Of a DNA stretch of 64,000 nucleotides, positions 912-15,054 are shown piece by piece. The position numbers and the translations under genes were made by a program. The stretch spans positions 515,914-579,913 of the forward strand of contig MKVL01000010.1 in the NCBI GenBank assembly GCA_001899205.1. The letters are read 5' to 3'. Position 1 is the stretch's first letter. Each line of letters begins with the position of its first letter. The notes below the pieces were generated by a model. The model worked only from the letters and a program-made list of their open reading frames with translations. It was not told the origin of the DNA and ran no database searches. The DNA is from Mesorhizobium sp. 65-26 (GTDB lineage Bacteria > Pseudomonadota > Alphaproteobacteria > Rhizobiales > Rhizobiaceae).

Positions 912-1898
912 ATGAACGCGATCGGTTGGCCGAATTTCAAGAGCCTTAACCAGGAAGGCATTGTCTTTGCCATAGCGGTGGTGCTGTTCGCCGCCGCCTC
1001 CGTCGGCCTGCCGGGTTTCTTCACCGCGGACAACCTCGTCGCCATCGTACGCTCGGTTTCCGTTCTGGGCATTCTGGCACTCGGCATGGCGGTGGTGATC
1101 ATCGGTCGCGGCATCGACCTGTCGGCTGTGGCGATCATGGCGATGTCGGTCGCCTGGTACCTGCAGCTCCTCAACATCGGCACGCCCGACGGACTGGCCT
1201 TCCTCTACGTACTGGCGGGCGTGCTGGCCATCGGCCTGCTCAACGGTTTCCTCGTCGCCTATGCCGACGTGCCGGCGATCTTCGTGACGCTCGCGACCGG
1301 GTCCTTCGTGTTCGGCTATGTGCGTTCCCAGCTCATCACGCAGGATGCCGTGCCGGTGCCGCAGGACCATTGGGTCGAGCGCCTCGGCGGTCTGCGCTTC
1401 CTCGATATTCCGATCGAGGTGTTCGTCTTCGCGGCGCTCGCTTTCCTGGTGTTCCTGTTCCTGCGCTACACCAAATGGGGCCGCTACATCTATTTCGCCG
1501 GCGACAATCCGGTGGCCGCGCGCAACATCGGCATTCCCGTGCGGCCGATGCTGGTGCTGCGCTATGTGCTGTCGGCGGTCGTGGCGTTCGCCGCCGGCCT
1601 GCTGACGGCCGCGAGCCTGCATTCGATCAACACCCGCGTGGTCAACTCGACGCTGCTCTACGACATCGTGCTGGTGGCTGTGATCGGCGGCATTGGCCTG
1701 TCGGGCGGCCGGGGCGGGGTGCGCAACGTGCTGGTCGGCGCCGCGCTGATCGGAATCCTGCTCAACGCCATGACCATTATCGACATTCCCTTGCTCTACC
1801 AGAACCTGATCAAGGCGGCGATCCTGCTCGGCGCCATCATCGTCGACGGCATCATCAATCCGCGCGACGAACAGACTGCACAGCAGGGCGACATTTAG
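912..1898 (+). CDS. Sugar ABC transporter permease (RbsC type)
   Basis: A 328-residue integral membrane protein with about nine or ten hydrophobic segments. It has the BPD_transp_2 signatures of ribose/xylose permeases: GMAVVIIGRGIDLSAVAIM near residue 60 and a GGIGLSGGRGGVRN cytoplasmic loop near residue 260. It would form half of the inner-membrane channel, paired with the permease part of the fusion protein downstream. This is the first gene of a plus-strand operon behind the palindromic operator. The loop after GIDLS reads SAVAIM rather than the usual SVGSI. Family is certain; the substrate is unknown, although the operon context suggests a sugar acid or lactone. Confidence 0.9.
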   Translation: MNAIGWPNFKSLNQEGIVFAIAVVLFAAASVGLPGFFTADNLVAIVRSVSVLGILALGMAVVIIGRGIDLSAVAIMAMSVAWYLQLLNIGTPDGLAFLYVLAGVLAIGLLNGFLVAYADVPAIFVTLATGSFVFGYVRSQLITQDAVPVPQDHWVERLGGLRFLDIPIEVFVFAALAFLVFLFLRYTKWGRYIYFAGDNPVAARNIGIPVRPMLVLRYVLSAVVAFAAGLLTAASLHSINTRVVNSTLLYDIVLVAVIGGIGLSGGRGGVRNVLVGAALIGILLNAMTIIDIPLLYQNLIKAAILLGAIIVDGIINPRDEQTAQQGDI

Positions 1899-1984
1899 AG
1901 CGGCTGGGCTAGCCCAGCTGCTCGGGGGTACCCGGCGCGGTCCATCCTGGCCGGCCGGCAATGATTGAAACCAGAGGACGTGAC

Positions 1985-3010
1985 ATGAGACTGATCAGAA
2001 CTTTGATGGCCGCGGCCACGGCGCTGGCCGTTTCCGCTTTCGCGGCGCAGAGCTTCGCGGCCGAGGATCCGGGTCCCGCCGCCTATGCCAAGGCGCTCAA
2101 CGGCAAGCGCGTCATGCTGGTGCCGCTGGCGATGGGCTTCGACCTCGCGCAGGGCTGGGCGCATTACCTCAAGAAGGAGGTCGAGGGTTGGGGCGGCACC
2201 TTCGAGACGCGCGACCCGAACTGGGTCGTCGATGCCGGCGCGCAGGCCATCACCGACGCCATTTCCTCCGACGCGCGACCCGACGTGCTGATCATCCACG
2301 CACCGGACCTCAATTCCTATTCCAAGCTGATGAAGAAGGCGCAGGCCGCCGGCACCTATGTCATGCTGGTCGACAATCCCGCCAACTTCCCCGCCGATGC
2401 CTTCGTGGGCAGCGACTGGGACAGGCTCGGTCAGCTCGAAGCGGAAGCGGCGATCAAGGGTTGCGGAGAGAACTCGTCCAAGAAGATCGGCCTTGTACAG
2501 GGCGACCAGGCGAACTCCTCCAGCCTCTACCAGTATGCCGGCATCATGAAGGTGCTGGAAAAGCATCCCGACTTCCAGGTGGTGGCCAAGCCTGACTCCA
2601 ACTGGGATGCGACGACCTCGCGCAACGTGACGACGACGATGCTGCAGCAGCATCCCGACATCTGCTCGATCATCGACTTCTGGGACGGTGACGCCTCCGG
2701 CGCTTCCGCCGCGATCCGCGATGCCAAGCTGGACGGCAAGGTGTTCCTCGTCACCACGGGCGGCGGCGAAAAGGCGGCCGACTGCGACAAGCTCCAGGAC
2801 GGCACCTATGGCGCTGTCGTCATGACCGACCTTGCTCGCCAGTCCGGCGACATGAACGCCATCATCAAGTTCCTGCTGCAGAGCGGCCAGCCGGCCGGCA
2901 CCTCGCACACCTATATCTACACGCTGGAGAAGGCGACGACGAAGGCCGATCTCAAGCCCGACAGCTGCTGGGACCTGAAGGCCCTGCAGGCCGAGGCGAC
3001 GGCGAAGTAG
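1985..3010 (+). CDS. Periplasmic sugar-binding protein
   Basis: A 341-residue ribose-binding-like protein (Peripla_BP_4 fold). The N-terminus MRLIRTLMAAATALAVSAF is a classical signal peptide with a probable cleavage at SFAA-ED. I chose ATG 1985, preceded by AGAGG, over the ATG 24 bp upstream because only this start gives a clean signal sequence. It lies 86 bp after the first permease and is followed 76 bp later by the fused permease. It should deliver the ligand to the two-permease channel. Two cysteine pairs could form disulfides. Binding residues are not diagnostic, so the ligand is not known. Confidence 0.88.
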   Translation: MRLIRTLMAAATALAVSAFAAQSFAAEDPGPAAYAKALNGKRVMLVPLAMGFDLAQGWAHYLKKEVEGWGGTFETRDPNWVVDAGAQAITDAISSDARPDVLIIHAPDLNSYSKLMKKAQAAGTYVMLVDNPANFPADAFVGSDWDRLGQLEAEAAIKGCGENSSKKIGLVQGDQANSSSLYQYAGIMKVLEKHPDFQVVAKPDSNWDATTSRNVTTTMLQQHPDICSIIDFWDGDASGASAAIRDAKLDGKVFLVTTGGGEKAADCDKLQDGTYGAVVMTDLARQSGDMNAIIKFLLQSGQPAGTSHTYIYTLEKATTKADLKPDSCWDLKALQAEATAK

Positions 3011-3086: not shown

Positions 3087-5210
3087 ATGACTTTTCGCGA
3101 ACGCCTCCAGTCCTGGCGCTACAATTTCGTGCCCGACCACCTGGTCGGCGAGATCCTGACCAAGCGCTGGACCGATAACGCCATTCCATTCCTGGCGCTG
3201 GTGGCGACGCTGGCCACCTTTGGCTCGATCATTCCCGGTTTCTTCAAGCTCTCCTCGCTGCAGGATTCGACCCGCCAGCTCGGCGAGTTCTCGATGGTCG
3301 TCACCGGCATGACCGTGGTGATGCTGGGCGGCGGCATCGATCTTTCGGTCGGTTCGATCTTCGCGCTCTCCTGCTTCTCGGCGGTCTATGTCTTCTTCAT
3401 CCTGGAGCAGTCGATATGGCTGGCGCTTGCCGCCGCCCTCTGCGCCGGATTGGTGTTCGGCGCGGTCAACGGTTACCTTATCGGCTATCTCAGGCTGCGT
3501 GCCTTCCTGACCACGCTGGTCACCTTCATCTTCGGCCGCGCACTGTTCGACATCCTTGTCACCACCTACGCCGCCGACGTGCAGCTTTCCAACGCCAGCT
3601 CCAACGTGCTCGACTTCATCGGTGACGGTACGTTCTGGGGGTTGTCGGTGTCGGTATGGGCAGCGATCATCCTTGCGGTCGTCACTCATGTCGCGTTGAC
3701 GCGCTCGCGCCCAGGCTGGCACGTGCTGGCGGTGGGCGGCTCGCGCCGGTCCGCGCACAATGCCGGCATCCGCGTGCGCCGCACCGTGTTCATGACCTAT
3801 GTCTTTTCGGGCTTCTGCGCCTCGATCGGCGGCTTCCTCATCGCCTGCCGCCTGAGCGGAGCGGGACCAGGCACCGGCCTCAACCTGGAAATCATGGCGC
3901 TGACGGCGGCCGTGGTCGGCGGCGTCAGCCTCGGCGGCGGCCGCGGCTCAGTAGTCAAGGGACTGATGGGCGCCATCATCGTGCTCACCATGACCAACGG
4001 GCTGATCCGGCTGGGCTACGGCACCGGCACCAACCAGATGGTGCTGGGCATCATGCTGGCGGTGGCCGTCACCATCGATATCCGCTGGCTGAAAAACCGC
4101 CACAAGGTGCTGAACGAGGTCTATGTCGCGCCGGTCTATCTCAAGATGGGCGAGACCCAGTCGGCCGTGCCGGGCTCGGGCACGCCCTATGCGCTCGACA
4201 ACCGCCTGTCGGCGGCCGACCATATCGGCCTCGGCGAGCTGGAGGGACCGGAAGACGTCATCCTCGATCGCGATGACCATCTCTATTGCGGCACGCGTCA
4301 CGGCGAGATCGTGCGGTTCCTGGCGCCGGACTACAAGCGCTCCGAAGTGTTCGCCCATATTGGCGGCTTCCCGCTCGGGCTTGCCTTCGACAGGGACGGC
4401 AATCTGATCAGCTGCGTCGGCGCCATGGGCCTCTATTCCGTCTCGCCGCAGCGCGAGGTAAAGCGGCTTTCGGCGGAGACGGCGCGTTCGTGGACATCGA
4501 TCGTTGACGACGCGCGGCTGCGCGACCCGAACGATTGCGATATCGCGCCGGATGGCCGCATCTACTTCACGGATTCGACCAAGCGCTACGACGCGCATGA
4601 CTGGGCTCTGGATTCGATCGAGAACCGCGCCACTGGCCGCCTGCTGGTCTACGACCCGAAGGACGGTTCGACGAAGACGCTGCTCGACGGCTACCGCTAC
4701 ACCAACGGCGTCTGCATGGCGCATGACGGCAAATCGCTGTTCTTCGCCGAAAGCTGGGCCTGCCGCGTCCATCGCTATTGGCTGGAGGGGCCGAAGGCCG
4801 GCACGGCAGAATGCGTCATCCGCGACATGCCGGGTTATCCCGACAACATCAATCGCGCCTCCGATGGAAACTACTGGATGGCCTGGCTCGGCATGCGCAC
4901 GCCGAGCTTCGACCTGTCGCTGCGCCACCCCGACATGCGCAAGCGCATGACGCGGCGCCTGCCGCAGGATGACTGGCTGTTCCCCAACATCAACACGGGC
5001 GGCGTGGTGAAGTTCAACGAGAAGGGCGGTATCGTCGAGACGCTGGGCGACCTGACGGGCACGGCGCATCCGATGGTCACCTCGATGCGCGAGCACAAGG
5101 GATATCTGTTCGTCGGCGGCATCCTCAACAACCGCATCGGCCGCTACAAGATTTCGGGCGCCGACCCCAACTGGACGAGTCCGGATTCGTATTGGGGAGG
5201 CAAGCGGTGA
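3087..5210 (+). CDS. ABC permease fused to a strictosidine-synthase-like beta-propeller
   Basis: A 707-residue protein of two parts. Residues 1-345 are an RbsC-type permease with GGGIDLSVGSIF near residue 90 and GGVSLGGGRGS near residue 280. Residues about 360-700 are a soluble six-bladed propeller of the SMP-30/strictosidine synthase/APMAP kind. Signs of the propeller are EDVILD, NDCDIAPDGRIYFTDST, TGRLLVYDP, YTNGVCM and FFAESWACRVHRYWLEGP. These folds commonly bind calcium and hydrolyse lactones or esters. RbsC permeases usually end in the cytoplasm, so the propeller is probably cytoplasmic and tethered at the channel exit (inference). The reading frame is continuous with no stop at the junction. 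The next gene overlaps its stop codon. Confidence 0.88.
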   Translation: MTFRERLQSWRYNFVPDHLVGEILTKRWTDNAIPFLALVATLATFGSIIPGFFKLSSLQDSTRQLGEFSMVVTGMTVVMLGGGIDLSVGSIFALSCFSAVYVFFILEQSIWLALAAALCAGLVFGAVNGYLIGYLRLRAFLTTLVTFIFGRALFDILVTTYAADVQLSNASSNVLDFIGDGTFWGLSVSVWAAIILAVVTHVALTRSRPGWHVLAVGGSRRSAHNAGIRVRRTVFMTYVFSGFCASIGGFLIACRLSGAGPGTGLNLEIMALTAAVVGGVSLGGGRGSVVKGLMGAIIVLTMTNGLIRLGYGTGTNQMVLGIMLAVAVTIDIRWLKNRHKVLNEVYVAPVYLKMGETQSAVPGSGTPYALDNRLSAADHIGLGELEGPEDVILDRDDHLYCGTRHGEIVRFLAPDYKRSEVFAHIGGFPLGLAFDRDGNLISCVGAMGLYSVSPQREVKRLSAETARSWTSIVDDARLRDPNDCDIAPDGRIYFTDSTKRYDAHDWALDSIENRATGRLLVYDPKDGSTKTLLDGYRYTNGVCMAHDGKSLFFAESWACRVHRYWLEGPKAGTAECVIRDMPGYPDNINRASDGNYWMAWLGMRTPSFDLSLRHPDMRKRMTRRLPQDDWLFPNINTGGVVKFNEKGGIVETLGDLTGTAHPMVTSMREHKGYLFVGGILNNRIGRYKISGADPNWTSPDSYWGGKR

Positions 5211-6262
5211 TCCTCGATCCGATCCTCGACATTTTCCGCGGCAAGGCGGTGACTATCCCGCCGCTCGACGGCGCATTCCGCCCCAACACGAAGCTGGACG
5301 ATGCGCCGGCATTCGCTGAACTGAGCGAGGCGGACAATCTGCTGACGGCCGGCGACAGGCTGCTCGCTTCCAGCGGCAACGCCGTCTTCGCGCTCGCCGC
5401 CGACGGTACGGTGACGGTGGTTGAGACCTTCCAGTCGCGGGTCACGGCGCTGGCGCTTTCGCCGAGCGGCGAGCTGACGGTCGGCCTGGAGACCGGGAAG
5501 CTGCTGACGAGCGGCAAGGAAGTCGCGTTGCCCGCCGACATCAACTGCATCACCGCGCTCGCCTATGGCCAGGACGGCACGCTGTGGCTGGCGAATGGCT
5601 CTGCCCGCCACGCGCCATCGCAATGGGCGGCCGACCTGATGGAGAAGGGGGCCTCGGGTTCGCTGTGGAAGCGCGAGCCGGCGGGCGGCGCGTTCCGGCA
5701 GGTCGCCGGCGGCCTGGCCTTCCCGTATGGCCTTCATCAGGTGGGCACCGACATCATCGTCGCCGAGAGCTGGCGTCACCAGCTCGTTCGCCATGATGGC
5801 GCGAGCGGTGCGGCCACGACCGTTCTGGCGCATCTGCCCGGCTATCCAGCGCGGATGGCGCCGGCTGCCGGAGGCGGCGCCTGGCTGGCGTTGTTTGCGC
5901 CGCGCAACCGGCTGATCGAGTTCATCCTGCAGGAGGTGCACTACCGCGAGGACATGCTGCGCGAGGTCTCGCCGGACTGCTGGATCGCACCGGCGCTCGC
6001 CTCCAACCGAAATTTCCTGGAGCCGCTGCAATGCGGCGCCATCCGCACCATGGGCATCCACAAGCCCTGGTCTCCCAGCCGTTCCTACGGGCTGGTGGCG
6101 CGGCTCGACGCCGATATGCGGCCTCGGTTCAGCATCCACAGCCGCGCCAACGGCACGCGCCACGGCATCTGCAGCGTGGCCGAACGGAGCGGGCGGCTGT
6201 TCGTCGCCTCCAGGGGCGGCGACTGCGTGTTATCGCTCGACGCCGCCACGGGAGGCTTCTGA
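5207..6262 (+). CDS. SMP-30/strictosidine-synthase-like propeller protein
   Basis: A 351-residue protein without signal peptide or membrane segment, so probably cytoplasmic. I chose GTG 5207: GGGGAGG sits 6 bp upstream and the codon overlaps the preceding TGA (GTGA), indicating translational coupling. Motifs match the propeller half of the preceding fusion, including FPYGLHQVGTDIIVAESWRH, LPGYPARMAPA and a late RHGICSVAERSGRLFVAS strand, so the two are paralogous. Lactonase or esterase activity is plausible for the family. The sequence around the usual metal ligands is divergent, so activity is uncertain. It is followed at once by the ATPase gene. Confidence 0.75.
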   Translation: MILDPILDIFRGKAVTIPPLDGAFRPNTKLDDAPAFAELSEADNLLTAGDRLLASSGNAVFALAADGTVTVVETFQSRVTALALSPSGELTVGLETGKLLTSGKEVALPADINCITALAYGQDGTLWLANGSARHAPSQWAADLMEKGASGSLWKREPAGGAFRQVAGGLAFPYGLHQVGTDIIVAESWRHQLVRHDGASGAATTVLAHLPGYPARMAPAAGGGAWLALFAPRNRLIEFILQEVHYREDMLREVSPDCWIAPALASNRNFLEPLQCGAIRTMGIHKPWSPSRSYGLVARLDADMRPRFSIHSRANGTRHGICSVAERSGRLFVASRGGDCVLSLDAATGGF

Positions 6263-7758
6263 TGGAACCGATCGTGCGGCTGGAGAACGTCACCAAGGCC
6301 TATCGTGGCGTGCCTGCGGTGAAGAACGTCAGCTTCGAGCTGCGCAAGGGCGAGATCCACGCGCTGCTCGGCGAGAACGGGGCGGGAAAATCGACGCTGA
6401 CCAAGATCATCGCCGGCGTGGTGGAGGCGACGTCGGGCAAGATGTTCCACAAGGGCGTGGAGACAGTCTTCGCCTCGCCGCATGCGGCGCTCGAGGCGGG
6501 TATTGCCATGGTGTTCCAGGAGACCAGCCTGGTGCCGTCGATGACGGTGGCGCAGAACCTCTATCTCGGCAGCGAGAAATTCCTCAACCGTCTGCGCGGC
6601 ACCTACATCTCAGCGCAGCAGTTCCTGCAGTCGCTCAACTTCCCCGTCGATCCAAATGCCCTGGTGGCGACGCTGGGCGCCGCCAAGCGGCAGATGGTGG
6701 AGATCGCGCGCGCCGTCCACCACAATGCCGAGATCATCATCTTCGACGAGCCGACAGCGACGCTGACGCCCGAGGAGAAACGGCATTTCTTCGCGCTTAT
6801 CCGCAGGCTGAAGGCCGGCGGCGTGTCCATCGTCTTCATCAGTCATGCGCTGGAGGAAGCGCTCGGCATCGCCGACCGCATCACCATCCTGCGCGATGGC
6901 GAACTCGTCATCACCGACGATACCTCGGCCTTCGATCGCGACCGGATCGTGGCGGCCATGGTCGGCCGCTCGCTGTCCGGACAGATCTATGGCCAGCGCG
7001 ACGAAGCTAAATTGCGCAAGCCTGGCAGAAAGGTGCTGTCGGTGCAGGACATCTCTATGAGCAATGTCGTGCGCAACAATTCCTTCTCGATCTTCGAGGG
7101 GCAGATCACCGGTGTGTTCGGTCTGATCGGCTCCGGTCGCACCGAGACGTTCAAGATCGTGTCCGGCATCTACAAGCGCGACTTCCTGCGCGGCGGCGCG
7201 ATCGAGCTCGACGACCGCCCGGTGCGTTATCTCGTGCCGTCCGAAGCGGTGGCCGACGGCATCGTCTACGTCACCGAGGACCGCAAGAGCGAAGGCATAT
7301 TCGAGACGATGGGCATCGCCGAAAATCTGTTCGGCGGCCTGCTGGCGGTCGGTCGCGAAAAGGCCTGGGTGATCAACCAGCAGGAGATGCGGCAGCTTTC
7401 GGCCGAATGGACCAAGACGCTGAACATCCGCGCCATCAACGACAATGCGCGCGTGGTGGAGCTTTCCGGCGGCAACCAGCAGAAGGTGGTGATAGGCAAG
7501 GGGCTGGTGCAGAAGCCGCGCATCGTCATCCTCGACGAACCGACGCGTGGCGTCGATGTCGGCGCCATCGCCGAGATCCACCAGATCATCAACCGGCTGG
7601 CCGACGAGGGGCTGGCGGTCGTCGTCATCTCGTCCTACCTGCCGGAGATCATGAACCTGTCGGACCGTATCCTCGTGTGCCGCCAGGGTCGCATCGTGGA
7701 AGAGTTCTCGCCGGCGGAGGCCACCGAGGAGAAGATCATGTACGCGGCGGTGCATTAG
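6262..7758 (+). CDS. Sugar ABC transporter double ATPase (RbsA/MglA type)
   Basis: A 498-residue protein with two tandem nucleotide-binding domains, which energises the importer encoded upstream. Domain 1 has Walker A GENGAGKST near residue 40 and Walker B IIIFDEPTA. Its signature loop is LGAAKRQMVEIARA instead of LSGGQ. Domain 2 has a degenerate Walker A (GLIGSGRTE) but an intact LSGGNQQKV signature and ILDEPTRGVDVGA. This asymmetry is normal for the family. ATG 6262 overlaps the previous TGA (TGATG) and follows GGAGG. It completes a set of two permeases, one binding protein and one ATPase. Confidence 0.92.
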   Translation: MEPIVRLENVTKAYRGVPAVKNVSFELRKGEIHALLGENGAGKSTLTKIIAGVVEATSGKMFHKGVETVFASPHAALEAGIAMVFQETSLVPSMTVAQNLYLGSEKFLNRLRGTYISAQQFLQSLNFPVDPNALVATLGAAKRQMVEIARAVHHNAEIIIFDEPTATLTPEEKRHFFALIRRLKAGGVSIVFISHALEEALGIADRITILRDGELVITDDTSAFDRDRIVAAMVGRSLSGQIYGQRDEAKLRKPGRKVLSVQDISMSNVVRNNSFSIFEGQITGVFGLIGSGRTETFKIVSGIYKRDFLRGGAIELDDRPVRYLVPSEAVADGIVYVTEDRKSEGIFETMGIAENLFGGLLAVGREKAWVINQQEMRQLSAEWTKTLNIRAINDNARVVELSGGNQQKVVIGKGLVQKPRIVILDEPTRGVDVGAIAEIHQIINRLADEGLAVVVISSYLPEIMNLSDRILVCRQGRIVEEFSPAEATEEKIMYAAVH

Positions 7759-7981: not shown

Positions 7982-8389
7982 ATGGCCACCACGAAACTCC
8001 TGACCGACGCCGAGGTCGAAAAAATCCCGGCCGTGAAGGCGGTGTTCGACGACATACGCGCCACGCGCAAATCGGACATCGTCAACAATTTCTGGCGCGG
8101 GCTTGCCAATGATCCGGCATCGCTGAAGCGGGTGTGGGAACAGCTCAAGGCCGTCATGGTGGCGGACAGCGTCATCGATCCGCTGACCAAGGAGATGATC
8201 TACATCGCCGTTTCGGTCGCCAATGGCTGCTCCTACTGCATCCATTCGCACACGGCCGCCGCGAAGGCCAAGGGCATGACCGACGCGCAGCATGGCGAGC
8301 TGGTCTCCATCATCGGGCTCGCCGGTCAGACCAACCATCTGGTCACCGCGCTGCAGATCCCGGTCGACCCGCAGTTCGAGGTGAAATAG
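7982..8389 (+). CDS. AhpD-like carboxymuconolactone decarboxylase family protein
   Basis: A 135-residue all-helical protein. The core NGCSYCIHSHTAAAKAKGM (near residue 80) holds the CxxC and downstream histidine typical of AhpD-type peroxidase or disulfide-exchange proteins of the CMD family. ATG 7982 is chosen because AAAGGA lies 8 bp upstream and the product then has the normal family length. It is separated from the ABC operon by the 117-bp palindrome, so co-transcription is uncertain. A redox or detoxification role is likely; the substrate is unknown. It converges with the amidohydrolase gene, with 10 bp between stop codons. Confidence 0.82.
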   Translation: MATTKLLTDAEVEKIPAVKAVFDDIRATRKSDIVNNFWRGLANDPASLKRVWEQLKAVMVADSVIDPLTKEMIYIAVSVANGCSYCIHSHTAAAKAKGMTDAQHGELVSIIGLAGQTNHLVTALQIPVDPQFEVK

Positions 8390-8399
8390 GCCGGCGCGT

Positions 8400-9287
8400 T
8401 TACACCGGCCGATAGACCTTCTTGGCCGTGTTCCAGAAGATATCGGCCTCTGCCTTGGCGCCGTGCCTGGCTACGGCGTCGCGGTGTGCCTTGATCAGTT
8501 CGGCGTGGCTGGTCCACAGCTTCTCGATAGGGAAGTTCGAGCCGAACATAAGCCGGTCGCTGCCGAGTATGTCGATCGCGGTGTCGACGATGTAGGCGAT
8601 CAGTTCCGGATCGTTGCGATGCGCGAACGTGCCGAGCCCCGATAGCTTGGCGTGGAAATTGGGCGCGGCCGCAAGCGTGCGAAGGCCTGCCTTCCACGCC
8701 TCGGTGGTTTCCGGCTCCATGCCCGTCAGCATGCCCGCATGCGTGAGGATGAAGTTCGTCTCGGGGTTTTCACCCACCAGCGCCAGCCCGTCCTTCATCT
8801 GCGCCGGGAAGAGCTGCAGGTCGAACGACAGGCCATAGCCCTTCAGCCGCGCCACATTGGCGCGCACCCTGGGATCGATCACCTGGTCGGCCGACGCGGC
8901 GAAGCGGAACGCCGGCGTCTCGTGCCAGTGGAGCTGCATGCGCACGCCGCGCAGCAGCTTGTATTTCATCATCCGGTCGATCTGCGGGCGCACATCCTCG
9001 ACCGTCATGTCGGCATAGCCGACGATGGCGTGCGGCCAGCCGGTCTCCTCGGCGGTCCGTTGCAGGAAGGCGACTTCCTTCTCGAAGTCCTCCTTCGCCC
9101 AGTTGGTCTGGACATAGACGGCCTTTTCCACGCCGGAGCCCTTCTGGTCCTGGAGGAATTCCCCGATCGGGTAGTCGCGACGGATCGGCTCGTAGGGTCC
9201 GAAGATGCGTGGCACCATTGGCCCGACGAGCCAAGGCTGGTCCTGCCGACGCCAGATGTGGAAATGCGCGTCGATGGCTTTCTGCAT
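8400..9287 (-). CDS. Amidohydrolase_2 family metal-dependent hydrolase
   Basis: A 295-residue TIM-barrel hydrolase related to L-fuconolactonase and 2-pyrone-4,6-dicarboxylate lactonase. Motifs in order: DAHFHIW near the N-terminus (metal HxH), RGVRMQLHW, FILTHAG, AKLSGLG and RLMFGSNFPIEKL near residue 255. The last motif usually reads FGSDWP; Asn instead of Asp at the catalytic position is a recurring variant, so the mechanism may differ. ATG 9287 overlaps the upstream stop (TGATG); GTG 9290 is an alternative. As last gene of the molybdenum-hydroxylase cluster it may open a ring made by that enzyme (inference). Confidence 0.82.
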   Translation of the reverse strand: MQKAIDAHFHIWRRQDQPWLVGPMVPRIFGPYEPIRRDYPIGEFLQDQKGSGVEKAVYVQTNWAKEDFEKEVAFLQRTAEETGWPHAIVGYADMTVEDVRPQIDRMMKYKLLRGVRMQLHWHETPAFRFAASADQVIDPRVRANVARLKGYGLSFDLQLFPAQMKDGLALVGENPETNFILTHAGMLTGMEPETTEAWKAGLRTLAAAPNFHAKLSGLGTFAHRNDPELIAYIVDTAIDILGSDRLMFGSNFPIEKLWTSHAELIKAHRDAVARHGAKAEADIFWNTAKKVYRPV

Positions 9288-10435
9288 CACGATACCCTTT
9301 TCCAGATGGTTTCGGCGGAAGGCGCCGGGCGGGCGAGCGAGAGGATGAAGCCGGCGAGGCCTTCGATCGACGACCCGTCGACAAGGTCGTCGATCACCGG
9401 CAGGATAGCGCGAAGCGCCGCCGTCACCGGGCGGAACCGGGGATCGCCCGCAAGCGGTGTTGCCAGCGACAGGCGGAAGGCGCGTGCCGCAAGCCGGCGC
9501 ATCGCCACTTCCAGTTCGGCATGGCCGCCGCGTTCAAGCCCGTCGGAGAGAAGCACGATCGCGGCGCCGCGCGCGAAGGCGGAGAAACGCGGCACAGACA
9601 GGAAGGCAAACAAAGTGGGGCCGATGCGGGTGCCGCCGTCCCAGTCGTCGACCTGGCTCGCCGCGCGCGCCAGCGCCTGTTCGCGGTCGCGGATGCGCAG
9701 CGCCGGCGTGATGCGGGTAAGGCGGGTGCCGAAGGTGAAGACCTCGACGTTGTCGGCGCCCTGGACGGCGGCGTGCGCCAACTTCAGGTGATCGGCCGTG
9801 TGCAGCTTCATCGAGCCGGAAATGTCGATGAGGATGAGCAGGCGGCGCGGCACCAACTGGCGGCGGCGCAGGCGCGGCCAGGGAACGTCGCCATCGGCGC
9901 CGACGATCTCGCGCAGCGAGCGCCTGAGGTCGAGCGCGCCATGCGAGCGCGCGGGCGCGGTGCGGAAGGACCGGCGGGCGGGGAGGGCGCGGGCCAGGCC
10001 TCGGGAAAAGGAAGCAAGCTGGCTCGCCTCGCGCTGGAAGTCGCGGCGGCTGAGCTGTTCGGAGGCTGATGACAGCTCGCCACCTTTCTCCTGGCGGGCG
10101 GCCAGGCTTTCCTCCTCGCGCGCGCCGCCGTCATCCTTGACGCGCGTCTCCTCGTCTTCCTCGCCCTCGACGCCGGCGGCGCCCTCGCCATGGAAATAGC
10201 CGCGAAAATGCGCGTCGAATTCGGCGCGACGGTCGACGGGTGGCGCGAGCATGGCGAATGCCGCTTCGTAAACATCAGCCATCGAACGCGGCCCGAGCAA
10301 GGTCACGGCGCGCATGAAGCCGACCGCCTGCTCGGGGGCGACGGCAAAGCCATGGCGGCGCAGCAGGCGAGCAAAACCCTGGAAAGGGGCGGCGGCACGG
10401 GGCAGCGCGGGCGTCGGAGGTCCGTCGCGCGTCAC
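9287..10435 (-). CDS. CoxE-like von Willebrand factor A domain protein
   Basis: A 382-residue protein with a low-complexity acidic/basic linker around residues 85-150, then a VWA domain. The MIDAS metal site is visible: DISGS at 204-208, DGGT about 55 residues later, and LLSDG. Homologues (CoxE) act with a MoxR-type ATPase (CoxD) in maturing the molybdenum/copper centre of carbon monoxide dehydrogenase and related hydroxylases. The GTG start overlaps the moxR stop (GTGA), so the two are translationally coupled. The CoxD/CoxE pair next to a hydroxylase supports a cofactor-insertion role, which is inferred. Confidence 0.85.
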   Translation of the reverse strand: MTRDGPPTPALPRAAAPFQGFARLLRRHGFAVAPEQAVGFMRAVTLLGPRSMADVYEAAFAMLAPPVDRRAEFDAHFRGYFHGEGAAGVEGEEDEETRVKDDGGAREEESLAARQEKGGELSSASEQLSRRDFQREASQLASFSRGLARALPARRSFRTAPARSHGALDLRRSLREIVGADGDVPWPRLRRRQLVPRRLLILIDISGSMKLHTADHLKLAHAAVQGADNVEVFTFGTRLTRITPALRIRDREQALARAASQVDDWDGGTRIGPTLFAFLSVPRFSAFARGAAIVLLSDGLERGGHAELEVAMRRLAARAFRLSLATPLAGDPRFRPVTAALRAILPVIDDLVDGSSIEGLAGFILSLARPAPSAETIWKRVS

Positions 10436-11313
10436 GCCAGCGCGTCCTCGACGATGCGGTCGAATTCGGGCGCGATGTAGGAGAGATCCTCCTCGTCCTT
10501 GATCAGCACGCCGATGGCGCGACGGAAGGCCTCAGGCCAGGGACTGCCGCCCTTTTCGAGGATGGTCGCGGCGTTGGCCCATTCGACCGCCTCGGCAATG
10601 CCTGGCGGCTTGGCCAGGGGCCGCGCGCGGATGTCGCGCACGGCGTTGGCGACAGCTCGCGCGGTTGCCTGCGCAACGTCGCCGGCGCGCGCCATGATGA
10701 TGGCGGCCTCGCGCTCGGCATCGGGATAGCCGATCCAGTGATAGACGCAGCGCCGGCGCAGCGCTTCCGCCAGCTCGCGTGTCCGGTTCGAGGTCAGGAT
10801 GACCACCGGCTGCGTGAGCGCGCGCACCGTGCCGCGCTCGGGAATGCTGATCTGGAAGTCCGAGAGGAACTCCAGCAGCAGTGCTTCGAATTCGTGATCC
10901 GATCGGTCGATCTCGTCGACCAGCAGCACGCGCCGGTCGGGTGCCCGCAGCACCTGCAGCAAGGGGCGGGCGATCAGGAAGCGGTCGTCATAAATATCGA
11001 CTTCCTGCTCGCCGGCATGGCGGATGGCGAGAAGCTGGCGCTGGTAGTTCCATTCGTAGAGCGCGTGCGCCGCATCGACGCCTTCGTAGCATTGCAGGCG
11101 CACCAGCTCGCGGCCGAGAAGTTCGGCAACCGCCTTTGCGGCCTCGGTCTTGCCGACGCCGGGGGCTCCTTCGAGCAGCAGAGGCTTGCCGAGCCGGAGT
11201 GCCAGGAAGATCGCCGTCGCCAGGCTTTCGTCCGCCAGGTAGCGCGAGGCGGCAAGCCGCGCGGCCACGGCCTCGGGCGAAGCGGCAAGTGTTTCTGCGT
11301 CGGTCAATGCCAT
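10432..11313 (-). CDS. MoxR/CoxD-type AAA+ ATPase
   Basis: A 293-residue AAA+ protein. Walker A GAPGVGKT is at 49-56 and Walker B VLLVDEIDRSD around 129-139. A sensor-1 stretch VVILTSNRTRELAEALRRRC follows, with the arginines expected of the MoxR clade. CoxD, the best studied relative, is a chaperone ATPase needed to sulfurate the active site of CO dehydrogenase. The gene begins 5 bp after the molybdopterin C-terminal gene and overlaps the VWA gene, so it is in the same operon. No strong Shine-Dalgarno precedes ATG 11313, consistent with coupled translation. Confidence 0.88.
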   Translation of the reverse strand: MALTDAETLAASPEAVAARLAASRYLADESLATAIFLALRLGKPLLLEGAPGVGKTEAAKAVAELLGRELVRLQCYEGVDAAHALYEWNYQRQLLAIRHAGEQEVDIYDDRFLIARPLLQVLRAPDRRVLLVDEIDRSDHEFEALLLEFLSDFQISIPERGTVRALTQPVVILTSNRTRELAEALRRRCVYHWIGYPDAEREAAIIMARAGDVAQATARAVANAVRDIRARPLAKPPGIAEAVEWANAATILEKGGSPWPEAFRRAIGVLIKDEEDLSYIAPEFDRIVEDALA

Positions 11314-11318
11314 GACGG

Positions 11319-12323
11319 TCAGACCGTGCCTTCAGCCTTCAGCGCGCGCAGGATGCGCTCGGGGGTGATCGGCAACGTGTCGACGCGCACGCCGACGGCA
11401 TCGAAGATGGCGTTGGCGACGGCGGGGATTTGCGGGTTTGCGCACATCTCACCCGGTCCCTTGGCGCCGTAGGGGCCGTCCGCCGAGGGCCGCTCCAGCA
11501 CGATGATCTCGGTGTCGGCGAGATCGCCTGGCCCCGGCATCAGATACTGGTTGAAGTCGGTACCGCCATGGTCGCGGCTGGGATAGTAGGGCTCGGTCGT
11601 TTCGTAGAGCGCGTGGCTGATGCCCATCCACGAGCCGCCGACCAGTTGCTGCTCGACCATCTTCGGGTTGAGCGCGCGGCCGATCTCGAAGATGTTCTTC
11701 ACCGTCAGTACGGTGACCTCGCCGGTCTCGTCGTCGACCTCCACCTCGGCCACGGTACAGGCGTGCGCATAACAGGTGGAGGGCTTCATCGCGCCCGTTT
11801 CCTTCTCGGGATAGGAGCGCGGGATAAGGAACATGCCGCGTCCCGAGATCGAGCGGCCGCGCTTGAAATGCGCCGACAGCGCGACGTCGAAGATCGAGAT
11901 CGACTTCTGCGGCGCGCCCTTGACCAGTATGTTGCCCTGGCCGTCGGTCTCCAGATCGCGGGCGTCGACCTCCAGTTCCTCGGCGGCCACCTCGAGCATC
12001 ACCTGGCGGGCTTCCCTGGCCGCCTGGATGACGGCGTTGCCGGCGCGGTGCGTGCCGCGCGAGGCGAAGGTGCCCATGCAGTGCGGGCCGGTATCGGTGT
12101 CGGCGGTATCGACGACGACGCGGTCGGTCGGCACGCCGATCGTCTCGGCGCAAATCTGCGCCATGATCTGCTTCATCCCCTGGCCGAGATCGACGCTTGA
12201 GAGCGTGACCATGAAATTGCCGGTGGGCGTCGAATGCACCAGGGCCTGGGTCGGGTCGCCACCGAGATTCATGCCGGTCGGATAGTTGATCGCGGCGACG
12301 CCGCGTCCGCGTCTGATGGCCAT
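11319..12323 (-). CDS. Molybdenum hydroxylase molybdopterin subunit, C-terminal half
   Basis: 334 residues matching the second half of xanthine-dehydrogenase-family large subunits. It carries the cofactor-binding motif SSVDLGQGM (near 43-50), the SRGTHRAGNAV segment (89-98) and the catalytic glutamate in AKGPGEMCANP (E292). It begins with its own ATG one base after the stop of the N-terminal half (TGAGATG), in a different frame, with AAGGA about 10 bp upstream. This is a separately initiated, coupled gene rather than an obvious sequencing slip. Nicotinate dehydrogenase of Eubacterium barkeri has the same split (NdhL/NdhM). The substrate is unknown. Confidence 0.85.
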   Translation of the reverse strand: MAIRRGRGVAAINYPTGMNLGGDPTQALVHSTPTGNFMVTLSSVDLGQGMKQIMAQICAETIGVPTDRVVVDTADTDTGPHCMGTFASRGTHRAGNAVIQAAREARQVMLEVAAEELEVDARDLETDGQGNILVKGAPQKSISIFDVALSAHFKRGRSISGRGMFLIPRSYPEKETGAMKPSTCYAHACTVAEVEVDDETGEVTVLTVKNIFEIGRALNPKMVEQQLVGGSWMGISHALYETTEPYYPSRDHGGTDFNQYLMPGPGDLADTEIIVLERPSADGPYGAKGPGEMCANPQIPAVANAIFDAVGVRVDTLPITPERILRALKAEGTV

Positions 12324-12324
12324 C

Positions 12325-13692
12325 TCAAGCTTCCTTTTCGTAGGAGGACATCGCCATGTATTTCTCGGCCACCGGCCAGTTGGCGGCGCGCGAGGCTTCC
12401 TGCATGCACTCGATGAGCGCCGCGCCCTCCGTCGGCTGGCGATGCGCCTTCATGTCTCCGTCGCGATAGGCGTTGATGAAGCGGAACTCGAGCGGGTCCA
12501 TGCCGATCAGCCGCGCCAGCTTGTCCATCTGCACTTCCAGCGCGAAATCGCCGATGGTGACGCCGAAGCCGCGCATGGCCGATGACGGCGTGCGGTTGGT
12601 GTAGACGCAGTAGGTGTCGATCCAGACGTTCGGGATGGTGTAGGGGCCGGGATAATGCCCGGCACCCTTCTGCGCGCCGTAGGGCGAGTGGCGCGAATAG
12701 GCGCCGGCATCGGTGTAGCCAGTGACCTTGCGCGCGGCGATGCGCCCATCTTTCATGACGCCGTCCTTGATGACGACCTTTTCGGCGGCGCGCGGCGAGG
12801 AGATCTGCATCTCTTCCTCGCGGCTGTAGACGAAGGAGACAGGGCGACCGGTGAGCTTGGCGGCGAGGATGGCGATCGGCTCGACGATCACGTCGACCTT
12901 GCCGCCGAAGCCGCCGCCGACGGTGCCGCCGACGAAGTGCAGCTTCGAGCCCGGCATCTGCAGGATGATCGACGTGTTGTCGAGGGTGAAGAACATCGCC
13001 TGCGTGTTGGTGTAGCAGGTGAAGCGGTCATTCCCCTCGGGCGCGACCACGCAGCCTGTCGTCTCCGTCGGCGCGTGCTCGATCGGAGAGGACTGGTAGC
13101 TCTGTTCGAGTATGTGGTCGGCCTGGGCAAAGCCTGCCTCGACATCGCCGAAACGCACCTTGCGGCATTCGCCGCTGTCGTAGAGGTAGTAGTTCTGGCC
13201 GTGATATTCGTTGACAAGCGGCGCGCCTGGCTTCAGCGCTTCCTCCATGTCAAAGACGGCGGGCAGCACTTCGTAGTCGACCTTCACCTTGGCGGCCGCC
13301 TCCTGGGCGGCGCGCTCGGTCTCGGCCAGAACGGCCACCACCGCCTCGCCCCTCCAGCGCACCTTGCCGTCGGCGAGCACGGTTTCGTCCTCCGGGCCGA
13401 TCTGGATGAGGATCAGGATGGTGTAGACGTTGTGCGGCACATCCCTTGCAGTCAGGATCCGCACCACACCGGGATGCTTTTCGGCCTCCGACGTATCGAT
13501 GGAGCGGATGCGGGCATGGTGGTGCGGGCTGCGCACCATCTTCAGGTGCAGCATGCCGGGAAAATTATGGTCGGCGAAAAAGGCGGTCTTGCCGGTGACG
13601 TGGCCAGGTGAATCGAGCCGTGGCCTCGGCTGGCCGATCTCATGCAGATCGTCCTTGCGGACATCGGCGAAATAGCTCTTGCGCAGTTCCAT
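12325..13692 (-). CDS. Molybdenum hydroxylase molybdopterin subunit, N-terminal half
   Basis: 455 residues matching the first half of xanthine-dehydrogenase-family large subunits. The order is an ab-hammerhead domain (residues 20-140, with GHVTGKTAFFADHN), then the first molybdopterin domain with GGTVGGGFGGK at 255-265 and SAMRGFG at 371-377. The loop reads AMRGFG and lacks the AYxCSFR of true CO dehydrogenase, so this is not CoxL. It ends in EKEA-stop, where most relatives continue for another 330 residues; the missing part is encoded immediately downstream. Together the products should form one catalytic unit with the FeS and FAD subunits. Confidence 0.87.
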   Translation of the reverse strand: MELRKSYFADVRKDDLHEIGQPRPRLDSPGHVTGKTAFFADHNFPGMLHLKMVRSPHHHARIRSIDTSEAEKHPGVVRILTARDVPHNVYTILILIQIGPEDETVLADGKVRWRGEAVVAVLAETERAAQEAAAKVKVDYEVLPAVFDMEEALKPGAPLVNEYHGQNYYLYDSGECRKVRFGDVEAGFAQADHILEQSYQSSPIEHAPTETTGCVVAPEGNDRFTCYTNTQAMFFTLDNTSIILQMPGSKLHFVGGTVGGGFGGKVDVIVEPIAILAAKLTGRPVSFVYSREEEMQISSPRAAEKVVIKDGVMKDGRIAARKVTGYTDAGAYSRHSPYGAQKGAGHYPGPYTIPNVWIDTYCVYTNRTPSSAMRGFGVTIGDFALEVQMDKLARLIGMDPLEFRFINAYRDGDMKAHRQPTEGAALIECMQEASRAANWPVAEKYMAMSSYEKEA

Positions 13693-13702
13693 GCTGGTTT
13701 CC

Positions 13703-14185
13703 TCAGGCGACGTTCTGCGAGTTGGAGCGGGCAGCCGTCAGCACCGCCTGAATGATCGGCTCGTAGCCGGTGCAGCGGCAGATATTGCCGGAGAGCGCCT
13801 CCACCACGTCCTCGCGGCTGGGATCGGGCGTGTGGTCGAGCAAGGCCTTGGCGGCCATGATCATGCCGGGCGTGCAGAAACCGCACTGGCTGGCAAAGGC
13901 GTCGAGGAAGGCGCGCTGCAGCGGGTGGAGCACGCCGCCCTCGGCAAGGCCGGCCGTCGTGATGATGGCGGCGCCGCTGCAGGTCTCGGCGAGCGTCAGG
14001 CACGACAGGCGCAATTCGCCATCTATGATGACCGAGCAGGCGCCGCAGGTGCCCTGGTGGCAGCCGCCCTTGGGGGAGGTGTCGCCGACCTTGTCGCGAA
14101 GCGCGTTGAGCAATGTCGCGCCGCTTTCGACGAACTCGGCCTTTTCGCTGCCGTTCAGCGTGAACTGGATGGGAACCTTGGCCAT
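13703..14185 (-). CDS. Molybdenum hydroxylase 2Fe-2S subunit
   Basis: 160 residues with the two iron-sulfur motifs of this family. The plant-ferredoxin-type cluster uses Cys 42, 47, 50 and 62 (GCHQGTCGACSVIIDG, then SCL). The helical [2Fe-2S] domain uses Cys 101, 104, 136 and 138 (QCGFCTPGMIM and NICRCTGY). All eight cysteines are present. It would relay electrons from the molybdenum site to FAD. ATG 14185 was chosen over an upstream in-frame start because AAGGAGGAG sits 6 bp ahead of it. It lies 10 bp before the molybdopterin genes. Confidence 0.93.
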   Translation of the reverse strand: MAKVPIQFTLNGSEKAEFVESGATLLNALRDKVGDTSPKGGCHQGTCGACSVIIDGELRLSCLTLAETCSGAAIITTAGLAEGGVLHPLQRAFLDAFASQCGFCTPGMIMAAKALLDHTPDPSREDVVEALSGNICRCTGYEPIIQAVLTAARSNSQNVA

Positions 14186-14259
14186 GTTTCTCCTCCTTGC
14201 GCCTCCGGCCGGAGACGTGCCCGTGATGGGCAATCCTTTCGTTTCGCGCGTCGGCCGGC

Positions 14260-15054
14260 TCAGCCGAGCAGCAGACGGCCGAGATGGACCGGCAGTACTT
14301 CCGCGCGGTACCAGGCGCTGGCGATCGGGTCAGTGGCGGGATCGATACCGACGCAGACGGCTGCGAGTGCCGGCGCGATGCCGTCCGCCGTCAGCCTTGC
14401 GCCAACCAGAGCTTTTTCCGCCACGCTCGCCCGCATGGGGCGGTCGGCCATGCAGCCGAGCGCGATGCGCGCCGAGGAGACCGTGCCGTCCGACGCATGA
14501 CCGAGGACGGCCGCGATGCTGAGCACCGAAACGCCCTTCGGCTTGACGCGCGACACTTTCAGGAAGCGGAAGCCGGCAAGCGCGGCGAGGTCGAAGCTCA
14601 CCGACGTGACGATGGCGTGGCTGTCGTCACGTCCTGTCAGGAACGCCTCGATGGGCATTGTGGTACCCCCGGCTTCGACACTGGCGCCGAGTGCCAGCAG
14701 CGCGACCGCGAAATCGCCATAGGGCGAAGGCGCGAAAAGGTTGCCGCCGACGGTCGCCATGTTGCGGATGGCGGGGCCGCCGACGGCGCGCGCGGGGCGC
14801 GCCAACGGAGCAAGATCAGGGTGGCGTGCGACGGCCGCCATGGTCACCGCGGCGCCGATCCGGACCTTGCCGCCGGAGATGTCGATGCCGGTAAGCGCAG
14901 GATCCGTCGAGCGTACCAGCGTGCAGACGCCGACATCGCCCTCATTGGCGGCGCGCACCACCAGGGTGCCGCCGCCGAGGTAGCGGGTGCCCGCGGCCTT
15001 GAGCGCCGTCTCGGCGTCCTCCACCGTCGCATAGGTCTGCAAAGCAAGCGCCAT
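14260..15054 (-). CDS. Molybdenum hydroxylase FAD-binding (medium) subunit
   Basis: 264 residues of the CoxM/XdhB family (FAD_binding_5 plus CO_deh_flav_C). Visible FAD motifs are AGTRYLGGGTLVV near residue 27 and ATVGGNLFAPSPYGDFAVALLALGA around 100-125. The usual T(I/L)GG pyrophosphate loop is present as TVGG. ATG 15054 is supported by GGGGGGAG 8 bp upstream. At about 265 residues it is slightly shorter than the usual 280-290. It passes electrons from the iron-sulfur clusters to an external acceptor. It is the first enzyme subunit gene of the operon. Confidence 0.9.
   Translation of the reverse strand: MALALQTYATVEDAETALKAAGTRYLGGGTLVVRAANEGDVGVCTLVRSTDPALTGIDISGGKVRIGAAVTMAAVARHPDLAPLARPARAVGGPAIRNMATVGGNLFAPSPYGDFAVALLALGASVEAGGTTMPIEAFLTGRDDSHAIVTSVSFDLAALAGFRFLKVSRVKPKGVSVLSIAAVLGHASDGTVSSARIALGCMADRPMRASVAEKALVGARLTADGIAPALAAVCVGIDPATDPIASAWYRAEVLPVHLGRLLLG

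Follow-up and report, generated by a model that had tools for sequence, protein, structure and literature searches.

The subject of this analysis is a gene unit in a 64,000-nucleotide stretch of DNA from Mesorhizobium sp. 65-26 (contig MKVL01000010.1, positions 515,914 to 579,913; the whole stretch is called the window), whose third gene encodes a membrane permease joined in one frame to a beta-propeller and whose fourth encodes a second, free propeller. We propose, at a probability of roughly 0.4, that the unit specifies an ATP-binding cassette (ABC) importer of the CUT2/RbsC type, in which a hydrolase of the strictosidine-synthase-like (SSL) kind is built in on the cytosolic side and is accompanied by a sister propeller, obligate but non-catalytic. 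Computation shows the gene architecture and how strictly the examined loci conserve it, the single group formed by each propeller type and the retention or loss of the metal-ligand site. In either reading of the propellers, enzyme or sensor, this importer with two of them is a machine of its own kind and a conserved one.

The fusion gene (3087-5210, + strand) encodes 707 residues with no internal stop, confirming the original prediction of a single continuous frame. A Pfam search of the full protein matched BPD_transp_2 (residues 67-327), SSL_N (367-411), SGL (405-602) and Str_synth (482-568), all above cut-offs, in line with the predicted kinship of the propeller to strictosidine synthase and SMP-30. 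Positions 11-317 of the 321 in the NCBIfam ribose permease model (RbsC) aligned with fusion residues 23-331. The permease is thus complete, as had been proposed, since the model aligns nearly to its end. The Pfam matches also agree with the claim of a complete propeller, whose six-bladed completeness rests on an AlphaFold2 (AF2) model (predicted local distance difference test, pLDDT, 78.4; predicted template modelling score, pTM, 0.56). The best PDB matches of this model are six-bladed propellers, and by the model the fused propeller is a complete six-bladed one of the STR/SGL fold. The fused-propeller model was built from 26 rows: the window plus all listed relatives but the partial L073 (25 of 26).

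To survey the fusion, 141 fusion open reading frames (ORFs) with flanks were collected from the window, six plasmids, one genome-contig scan (80) and, for the rest, the window's own and other genomes. That scan gave up to 533 matching places, from which the best 80 were taken; some of the others may be ordinary permeases. Seven of the 141 are repeats, found in two collections or in overlapping stretches, leaving 134 distinct loci, many of them close relatives. The fusion is thus general rather than singular, and a frame error or chance read-through is ruled out by 134 distinct loci from many assemblies.

The original prediction covered the fusion and the free propeller; the unit takes in two more genes upstream (912-3010) and one downstream (6262-7758), giving the order permease, binding protein, permease-propeller fusion, free propeller and double ATPase (Table 1). 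AraG, xylose and RbsA models rank top for the ATPase. By architecture the unit is a CUT2/RbsC-type importer, but tests against named sugar equivalogs assigned it to none. The full order was present in all six annotated plasmid regions around full-length fusion matches (Pantoea, Shinella, Paraburkholderia, Celeribacter, Sulfitobacter and Paracoccus). The free propeller directly follows the fusion in all 134 distinct loci, and 125 have the full five-gene order; contig ends truncate eight, and one, L245, has permease 1 inverted (4346-5263), the sole unit seen with its first permease on the opposite strand. Among the 65 fusions that share less than 90% identity, with a lowest pairwise value of 34.4%, 63 show all five genes in order, the other two being L245 and a truncated locus; the divergent fusions L203-L207 retain the order. 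Apparent loss of the free gene (four cases in one scan, three in another) was an artefact of gene calling or length filtering, the free ORF being present in each. The stand-alone propeller gene was predicted to overlap the stop codon of the fusion, and it does so by the four bases GTGA; ATGA, GTGA or TTGA stands at this junction in 124 of the 134 loci. Given this overlap, GTG at 5207 is a likelier start for the free propeller than TTG at 5192. Of the six paralogous five-gene systems in the window's own genome, two (L157 and L158) are separated by about 9 kb on contig C27. Both are flanked by CoA-transferase and aldehyde dehydrogenase genes, and a nitronate monooxygenase was confirmed beside the first.

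We examined the metal-ligand site of the fused propeller by mapping its positions through TGW6, the rice indole-3-acetic acid (IAA)-glucose hydrolase (PDB 8kg3), which is the best PDB match both by sequence and by fold; the lactonase RPA3624 stands lower in the list. TGW6 has the same E, N, N and N as the window, at 26% identity in the structural alignment. Asp586 had been taken as the fourth ligand and was replaced by Asn587 after mapping of the TGW6 numbering. The SSL-type set E-(N/D)-N-N is retained in 63 of 65 non-redundant fused propellers, as E-D-N-N in 43 and as the E-N-N-N of the window in 20; the other two read E-S-S-N and A-A-T-G. The corresponding positions in 15 stand-alone SSL proteins hold E in 15, D or N in 15, N in 14 and N in 13. 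His-192 of the TGW6 pocket falls on Trp506 of the fusion by hand mapping (Trp in 63/65), so the substrate likely differs from that of TGW6. Thr665 (Thr in 64/65) aligns with the catalytic Glu of strictosidine synthase, which we take to be Glu309 of the Rauvolfia enzyme, and a strictosidine synthase function was rejected on this ground. Most SSL proteins keep the four ligands and are predicted hydrolases, according to one study (PMC4215206). The hydrolase-type site in the fused propeller suggests a hydrolase function. The original prediction of a lactonase attached to the permease is thus half supported: a four-ligand site of hydrolase type is present, and lactone cleavage would be one possible chemistry, the closest match being an ester hydrolase (PMC10958001).

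The free propeller presents a different picture. Its ORF had no Pfam match at E 0.001. Profile-profile comparison with the fused propeller gave probability 100 and E 1.2e-40. Against PDB sequences a profile of 40 rows (the window and 39 of 73 listed relatives), also used for its structural model, placed a WD40 propeller first (5yzv, 2.6e-12) and TGW6 second (1.2e-10), and by fold the best matches were strictosidine synthases. At the ligand positions the window's free propeller reads D48/T121/Y179/R221, and among 65 members D occurs in 60, T in 54 and R in 63 while the third position is variable (N in 8). No SSL-type four-ligand metal site is therefore present in these 65 members, at odds with the idea of the free paralogue as a second lactonase-like enzyme. 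Loss of all ligands in both propellers had been named as a result that would count against the original prediction; the free propeller has lost the four-ligand site, and the fused one keeps it. The free sister thus seems to be an obligate partner of the fusion with no catalysis of its own. Compared with the fused propeller it carries an insertion at about residues 262-298 (numbered from TTG 5192; window 5975-6085), in which W264, P267, E277, P278, Q280, K291 and S298 are invariant in 40 aligned relatives. Despite this conservation the block folds poorly in the model of the monomer (pLDDT about 48-67); it is a candidate docking element.

The distribution of the two propellers was then compared. 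A class sample of 289 genomes had fusions in 7 (matches above 600 bits), a phylum sample of 398 in 11 and a family sample of 199 in 37, counts per genome being possibly low as only some first-look candidates were scored in each. Of 800 matching records in a plasmid search, 15 had 80% or more of the query within a single place. When 198 family genomes were scanned with the free-propeller profile, it recovered the identical 37 genomes plus G687, the latter with a 78-bit match only. The family sample held 62 fusions and 62 free propellers, with 60 pairs lying 0-90 bases apart and two overlapping by 2 and 4 bases; the window's own genome holds six of each. Identities of the two propellers are correlated at 0.813, against a best value of 0.295 in 1000 label shuffles. 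This 1:1 pairing and co-inheritance, the four-base overlap, the conserved but poorly predicted insertion of the free propeller and 20 positions conserved at 95% or more in the 65 fused propellers but at 20% or less in the 15 stand-alone SSL proteins would all suit a scaffold, in which fused and free propellers heterodimerise and either clamp the ATPase together with the asymmetric pair of permeases or recruit downstream enzymes. We consider a scaffold unlikely, as it leaves the retention of the ligand site unexplained and as co-inheritance within an operon yields such a correlation without contact; 0.813 is as expected for genes travelling together.

In a quick tree without bootstrap (28 fused, 28 free, 15 SSL and one SMP-30 row, one free row being long-branched), the fused propellers lie on one side of a branch with Shimodaira-Hasegawa approximate likelihood ratio test support of 96, with 100 for the free propellers and 67 for the SSL group. 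Repeated independent fusions are thus unsupported in the sampled set, since the fused propellers form one group. This single group, the wide spread, a propeller better conserved than its permease and the obligate second propeller make it highly improbable that we are dealing with an ordinary gene fusion without special function, an annotation curiosity. Such events do have precedent, as propellers fused to other enzymes occur. In Deinococcus a calcium-site propeller lactonase is fused to a Cu/Zn superoxide dismutase, in this case with no transporter (PMC12362111).

Topology bears on which side of the membrane the fused propeller occupies. Averaged hydropathy over 26 relatives gave ten hydrophobic segments in the permease, in agreement with the helices of the AF2 model. 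With the N terminus inside, mean Lys/Arg counts are 4.9, 0, 2.0, 6.3 and 1.0 for the inside loops and 1.4, 0, 0.7, 1.0 and 0.8 for the outside loops, and K336, N337, R338 and K340 behind the last segment are invariant in 12 aligned fusions. These signals support, by prediction, the earlier view that the permease ends in the cytoplasm. For the free propeller no signal or membrane segment was visible at the N terminus on reading the sequence. Both propellers are thus predicted to be cytosolic. All 15 stand-alone SSL proteins carry a hydrophobic stretch before the propeller (19-residue means 1.59-2.66; the one in L121 rather resembles a lipoprotein signal), which makes it probable that the fusion went together with a change of compartment. 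These relatives, with their implied extracytoplasmic propeller, are the ground for supposing that the fused propeller is instead periplasmic and processes the solute before uptake, like the membrane-anchored stand-alone proteins. Ten segments with a C-in charge bias, the invariant positive residues past the last of them and a free propeller lacking a visible signal sequence make this improbable.

Table 1. Features of the two-propeller importer locus; positions are those of the window, except for L203 and L204, which are given in their own loci.
Feature	Position	Strand	Remarks
First permease subunit (BPD_transp_2), RbsC-type, without propeller	912..1898	+	Pfam; first gene of the conserved order
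Binding protein (Peripla_BP_4)	1961..3010	+	Pfam; start may be 2006
Permease::SSL-propeller fusion, 707 aa	3087..5210	+	Open frame, Pfam, AF2 model
Permease domain (residues 1-345)	3087..4121	+	10 membrane segments, N-in/C-in by charge bias
Fused propeller (residues ~360-700)	4164..5186	+	Pfam, profile and structure matches
Codon of Glu389, ligand position 1	4251..4253	+	Glu in 64/65
Codon of Asn482, ligand position 2	4530..4532	+	Asp in 43/65, Asn in 20/65
Codon of Asn540, ligand position 3	4704..4706	+	Asn in 63/65
Codon of Asn587, ligand position 4	4845..4847	+	Asn in 64/65; aligns with TGW6 Asn-272 (hand mapping)
GTGA, fusion stop overlapping likely GTG start of free propeller	5207..5210	+	
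Free propeller, ligand site lost	5207..6262	+	Listed ORF starts at TTG 5192
Double ATP-binding subunit (AraG/RbsA type)	6262..7758	+	Two ABC_tran stretches; Pfam, NCBIfam
AhpD/CMD-family gene, outside the invariant unit, behind the ATPase gene	7982..8389	+	Relatives in 75/92 loci (presence, not position)
Fusion of L203	5734-7773		With L204, lowest-scoring fusions found
Fusion of L204	5874-8006		With L203, lowest-scoring fusions found

We also compared rates of conservation across the unit, in 91 loci binned by identity of the fused propeller to that of the window (n = 57, all at least 90% identical, then 23, 4 and 7). One copy is counted twice in the last bin (L157 and L158), single genes are missing at some contig ends, and binning on the fused propeller favours it slightly. 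Mean identity over the four bins was 94.8, 85.7, 67.9 and 57.0% for the fused propeller and 92.8, 80.0, 55.1 and 49.3% for the permease domain of the fusion. The ATPase gave 94.2, 82.3, 66.7 and 63.9%, the binding protein 92.9, 74.9, 46.8 and 36.5%, and the free propeller 74.8, 58.7, 44.1 and 43.6%. Over all pairs of the 65 the values were 59.8% for the propeller, 50.5% for the permease and 40.3% for the free propeller. Conservation of the fused propeller exceeds that of the permease domain to which it is joined, and the propeller is therefore under constraint of its own.

A propeller module conserved above its permease while the binding protein varies would also be expected of cytosolic sensing, in which the fused propeller, the free one or both would bind the product once it is inside and thereby slow transport (trans-inhibition), with no turnover. 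Four residues of the free propeller are invariant (K291, S317, R318 and H324, 65/65) and Arg221 occupies the old ligand position in 63/65, a set suiting a carboxylate ligand. Regulatory domains are found on ABC importers, as in MetN and ModC, but these are ATPase subunits, not permeases. A mere sensor would not need the complete hydrolase-type ligand set that 63 of 65 fused propellers keep. Sensing is on balance rather unlikely, if the most serious competitor. The enzyme reading explains the retention of the site, whilst sensing explains both its loss in L203 and L204 and a uniform propeller beside varied binding proteins.

Several observations weigh against a tethered hydrolase. In ABC importers the exit on the cytosolic side is taken up by the ATPase subunits, which leaves the propeller only a place beside it, and the placement of the two domains relative to each other is unreliable in the AF2 model at the pTM noted above. 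The two fusions with the lowest propeller scores, L203 and L204, have lost the site (A-A-T-G and E-S-S-N) and keep the whole unit; catalysis is thus not required everywhere. The drop of the binding protein to 36.5% while the propeller holds 57.0% is odd for a substrate-specific enzyme, unless the cleaved bond is common to all substrates. Finally, the window's site has one acidic ligand and the same four residues as TGW6, in whose crystals no Ca2+ was seen in anomalous data (PMC10958001). Metal binding by the E-N-N-N set of the window is accordingly doubtful.

Neighbouring genes were scanned for clues to the cargo. Of the downstream proteins 115 of 125 were scanned, and of the upstream ones 109 of 120, after removal by hand of some that were short or very long; counts refer to the first 25 of 85 families downstream and of 78 upstream. 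Downstream, CMD/AhpD (19), AMP-binding (9), Aldedh (7) and ECH (6) were found, along with class IV aminotransferase and SDR; upstream there were LysR (11), CoA_transf_3 (6) and adh_short (6). Copies in the window's own genome lie near genes for CoA-transferase, acyl-CoA dehydrogenase, GMC oxidoreductase and aldehyde dehydrogenase. The window copy adjoins an AhpD-like gene and an amidohydrolase resembling L-fucono-1,5-lactonase (102 bits against a cut-off of 400). Reading the CMD gene as a lactone decarboxylase, and so as support for a lactone, was dropped because the neighbour scores above the AhpD-core cut-off. As a small control within this one genome, 20 permease stretches were taken, nine of which gave 10 RbsC-type blocks with 40 neighbour proteins. 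These contained Peripla_BP_4 (9, the filter having admitted binding proteins), SDR (3), MR_MLE (3), GFO_IDH_MocA (2), galactarate dehydratase (1) and ROK (1), and among the first 25 of 45 families no CMD, AMP-binding, ECH or CoA_transf_3. The control blocks thus have a mix unlike that around the fusion units, including a few enzymes of sugar-acid metabolism. SDR genes do not discriminate, since they occur in the control blocks too. The fusion's permease scored far below the cut-off of every sugar equivalog listed, at best 146 bits against 398. The label of sugar permease in the original prediction is thus a resemblance of class only, and with flanks that lean towards acyl-CoA and organic-acid enzymes, organic acids or their conjugates seem likelier as cargo than free sugars. 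The opposite strand (window 9287-15054) carries in one cluster what look, from the sequence alone, like genes for a VWA protein, for a MoxR-type ATPase and for subunits of a molybdenum hydroxylase.

The unit resembles CUT2 importers such as RbsABC, AraFGH and XylFGH in its ten-segment RbsC-type permease, double ATPase and Peripla_BP_4 binding protein. Unlike them it combines two dissimilar permeases, of which one has a propeller at its end, with an extra free propeller; it also falls below all sugar equivalog cut-offs listed and has neighbours that lean away from the sugar type. With SSL/N6P hydrolases of the APMAP type it shares the Str_synth, SSL_N and SGL domains and the four-ligand E-(D/N)-N-N, but its propeller is fused to a transporter and predicted to be cytosolic instead of being anchored by an N-terminal hydrophobic stretch. 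APMAP itself has an N-terminal membrane anchor and an extracytoplasmic propeller; set against this description, rather than an APMAP sequence, the propeller here follows a ten-segment permease on the predicted cytosolic side. A locus of Rhizobium tumorigenes (L023, 4583-7407) has two ordinary RbsC-type permeases with an SMP-30-type propeller gene right behind, although its propeller is single and encoded separately, and identity is 26.7% over part of the protein. Searches of open-licence papers aimed at the fusion gave no description of a permease fused to such a propeller, in keeping with the earlier statement that no described transporter of this kind was known.

For the favoured importer with a built-in hydrolase, the cytosolic side, protein-protein contact, hydrolysis and the substrate class are steps that we infer. 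The solute would be captured by the binding protein and pass through the permease pair, and the tethered propeller would cleave an ester-like bond (an acyl or glycosyl ester, or a lactone) of the arriving solute. Cleavage would leave an acid for the nearby CoA-type catabolic genes, and the free propeller, which carries Arg where a metal ligand used to be, may serve the complex as a structural partner or as a regulator. The earlier rationale, that hydrolysis makes uptake one-way, is weak, as ATP-driven ABC importers are one-way already; it would be a better rationale that hydrolysis traps an ester or lactone able to cross the membrane. A bolder version, which we consider rather unlikely, is a new class of ABC importer that combines uptake and the first catabolic reaction in one machine. 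Its tethered cytosolic esterase or lactonase would be held and regulated by the obligate pseudoenzyme sister and would act on imported conjugated organic acids (e.g. plant acyl-sugar or lactone forms), the diverging binding protein reading the variable part and the propeller cutting the constant bond.

Current annotation hides the two-propeller importer. Plasmid records with a named feature call the fusion RbsC, 'ABC transporter permease' or 'SMP-30/gluconolactonase/LRE family protein', and its partner in six regions is a 'hypothetical protein' (5) or 'strictosidine synthase' (1). Should the propeller prove active, the importer would convert its cargo chemically at the membrane. Conversion of cargo coupled to uptake is a feature of phosphotransferase system transporters and, to our knowledge, is not known in ABC importers. 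The pairing of a site-keeping with a site-lost propeller offers a natural system for the study of pseudoenzymes turning into obligate partners. With up to 533 matching places in one scan, even if some are ordinary permeases, it is testable in many soil bacteria.

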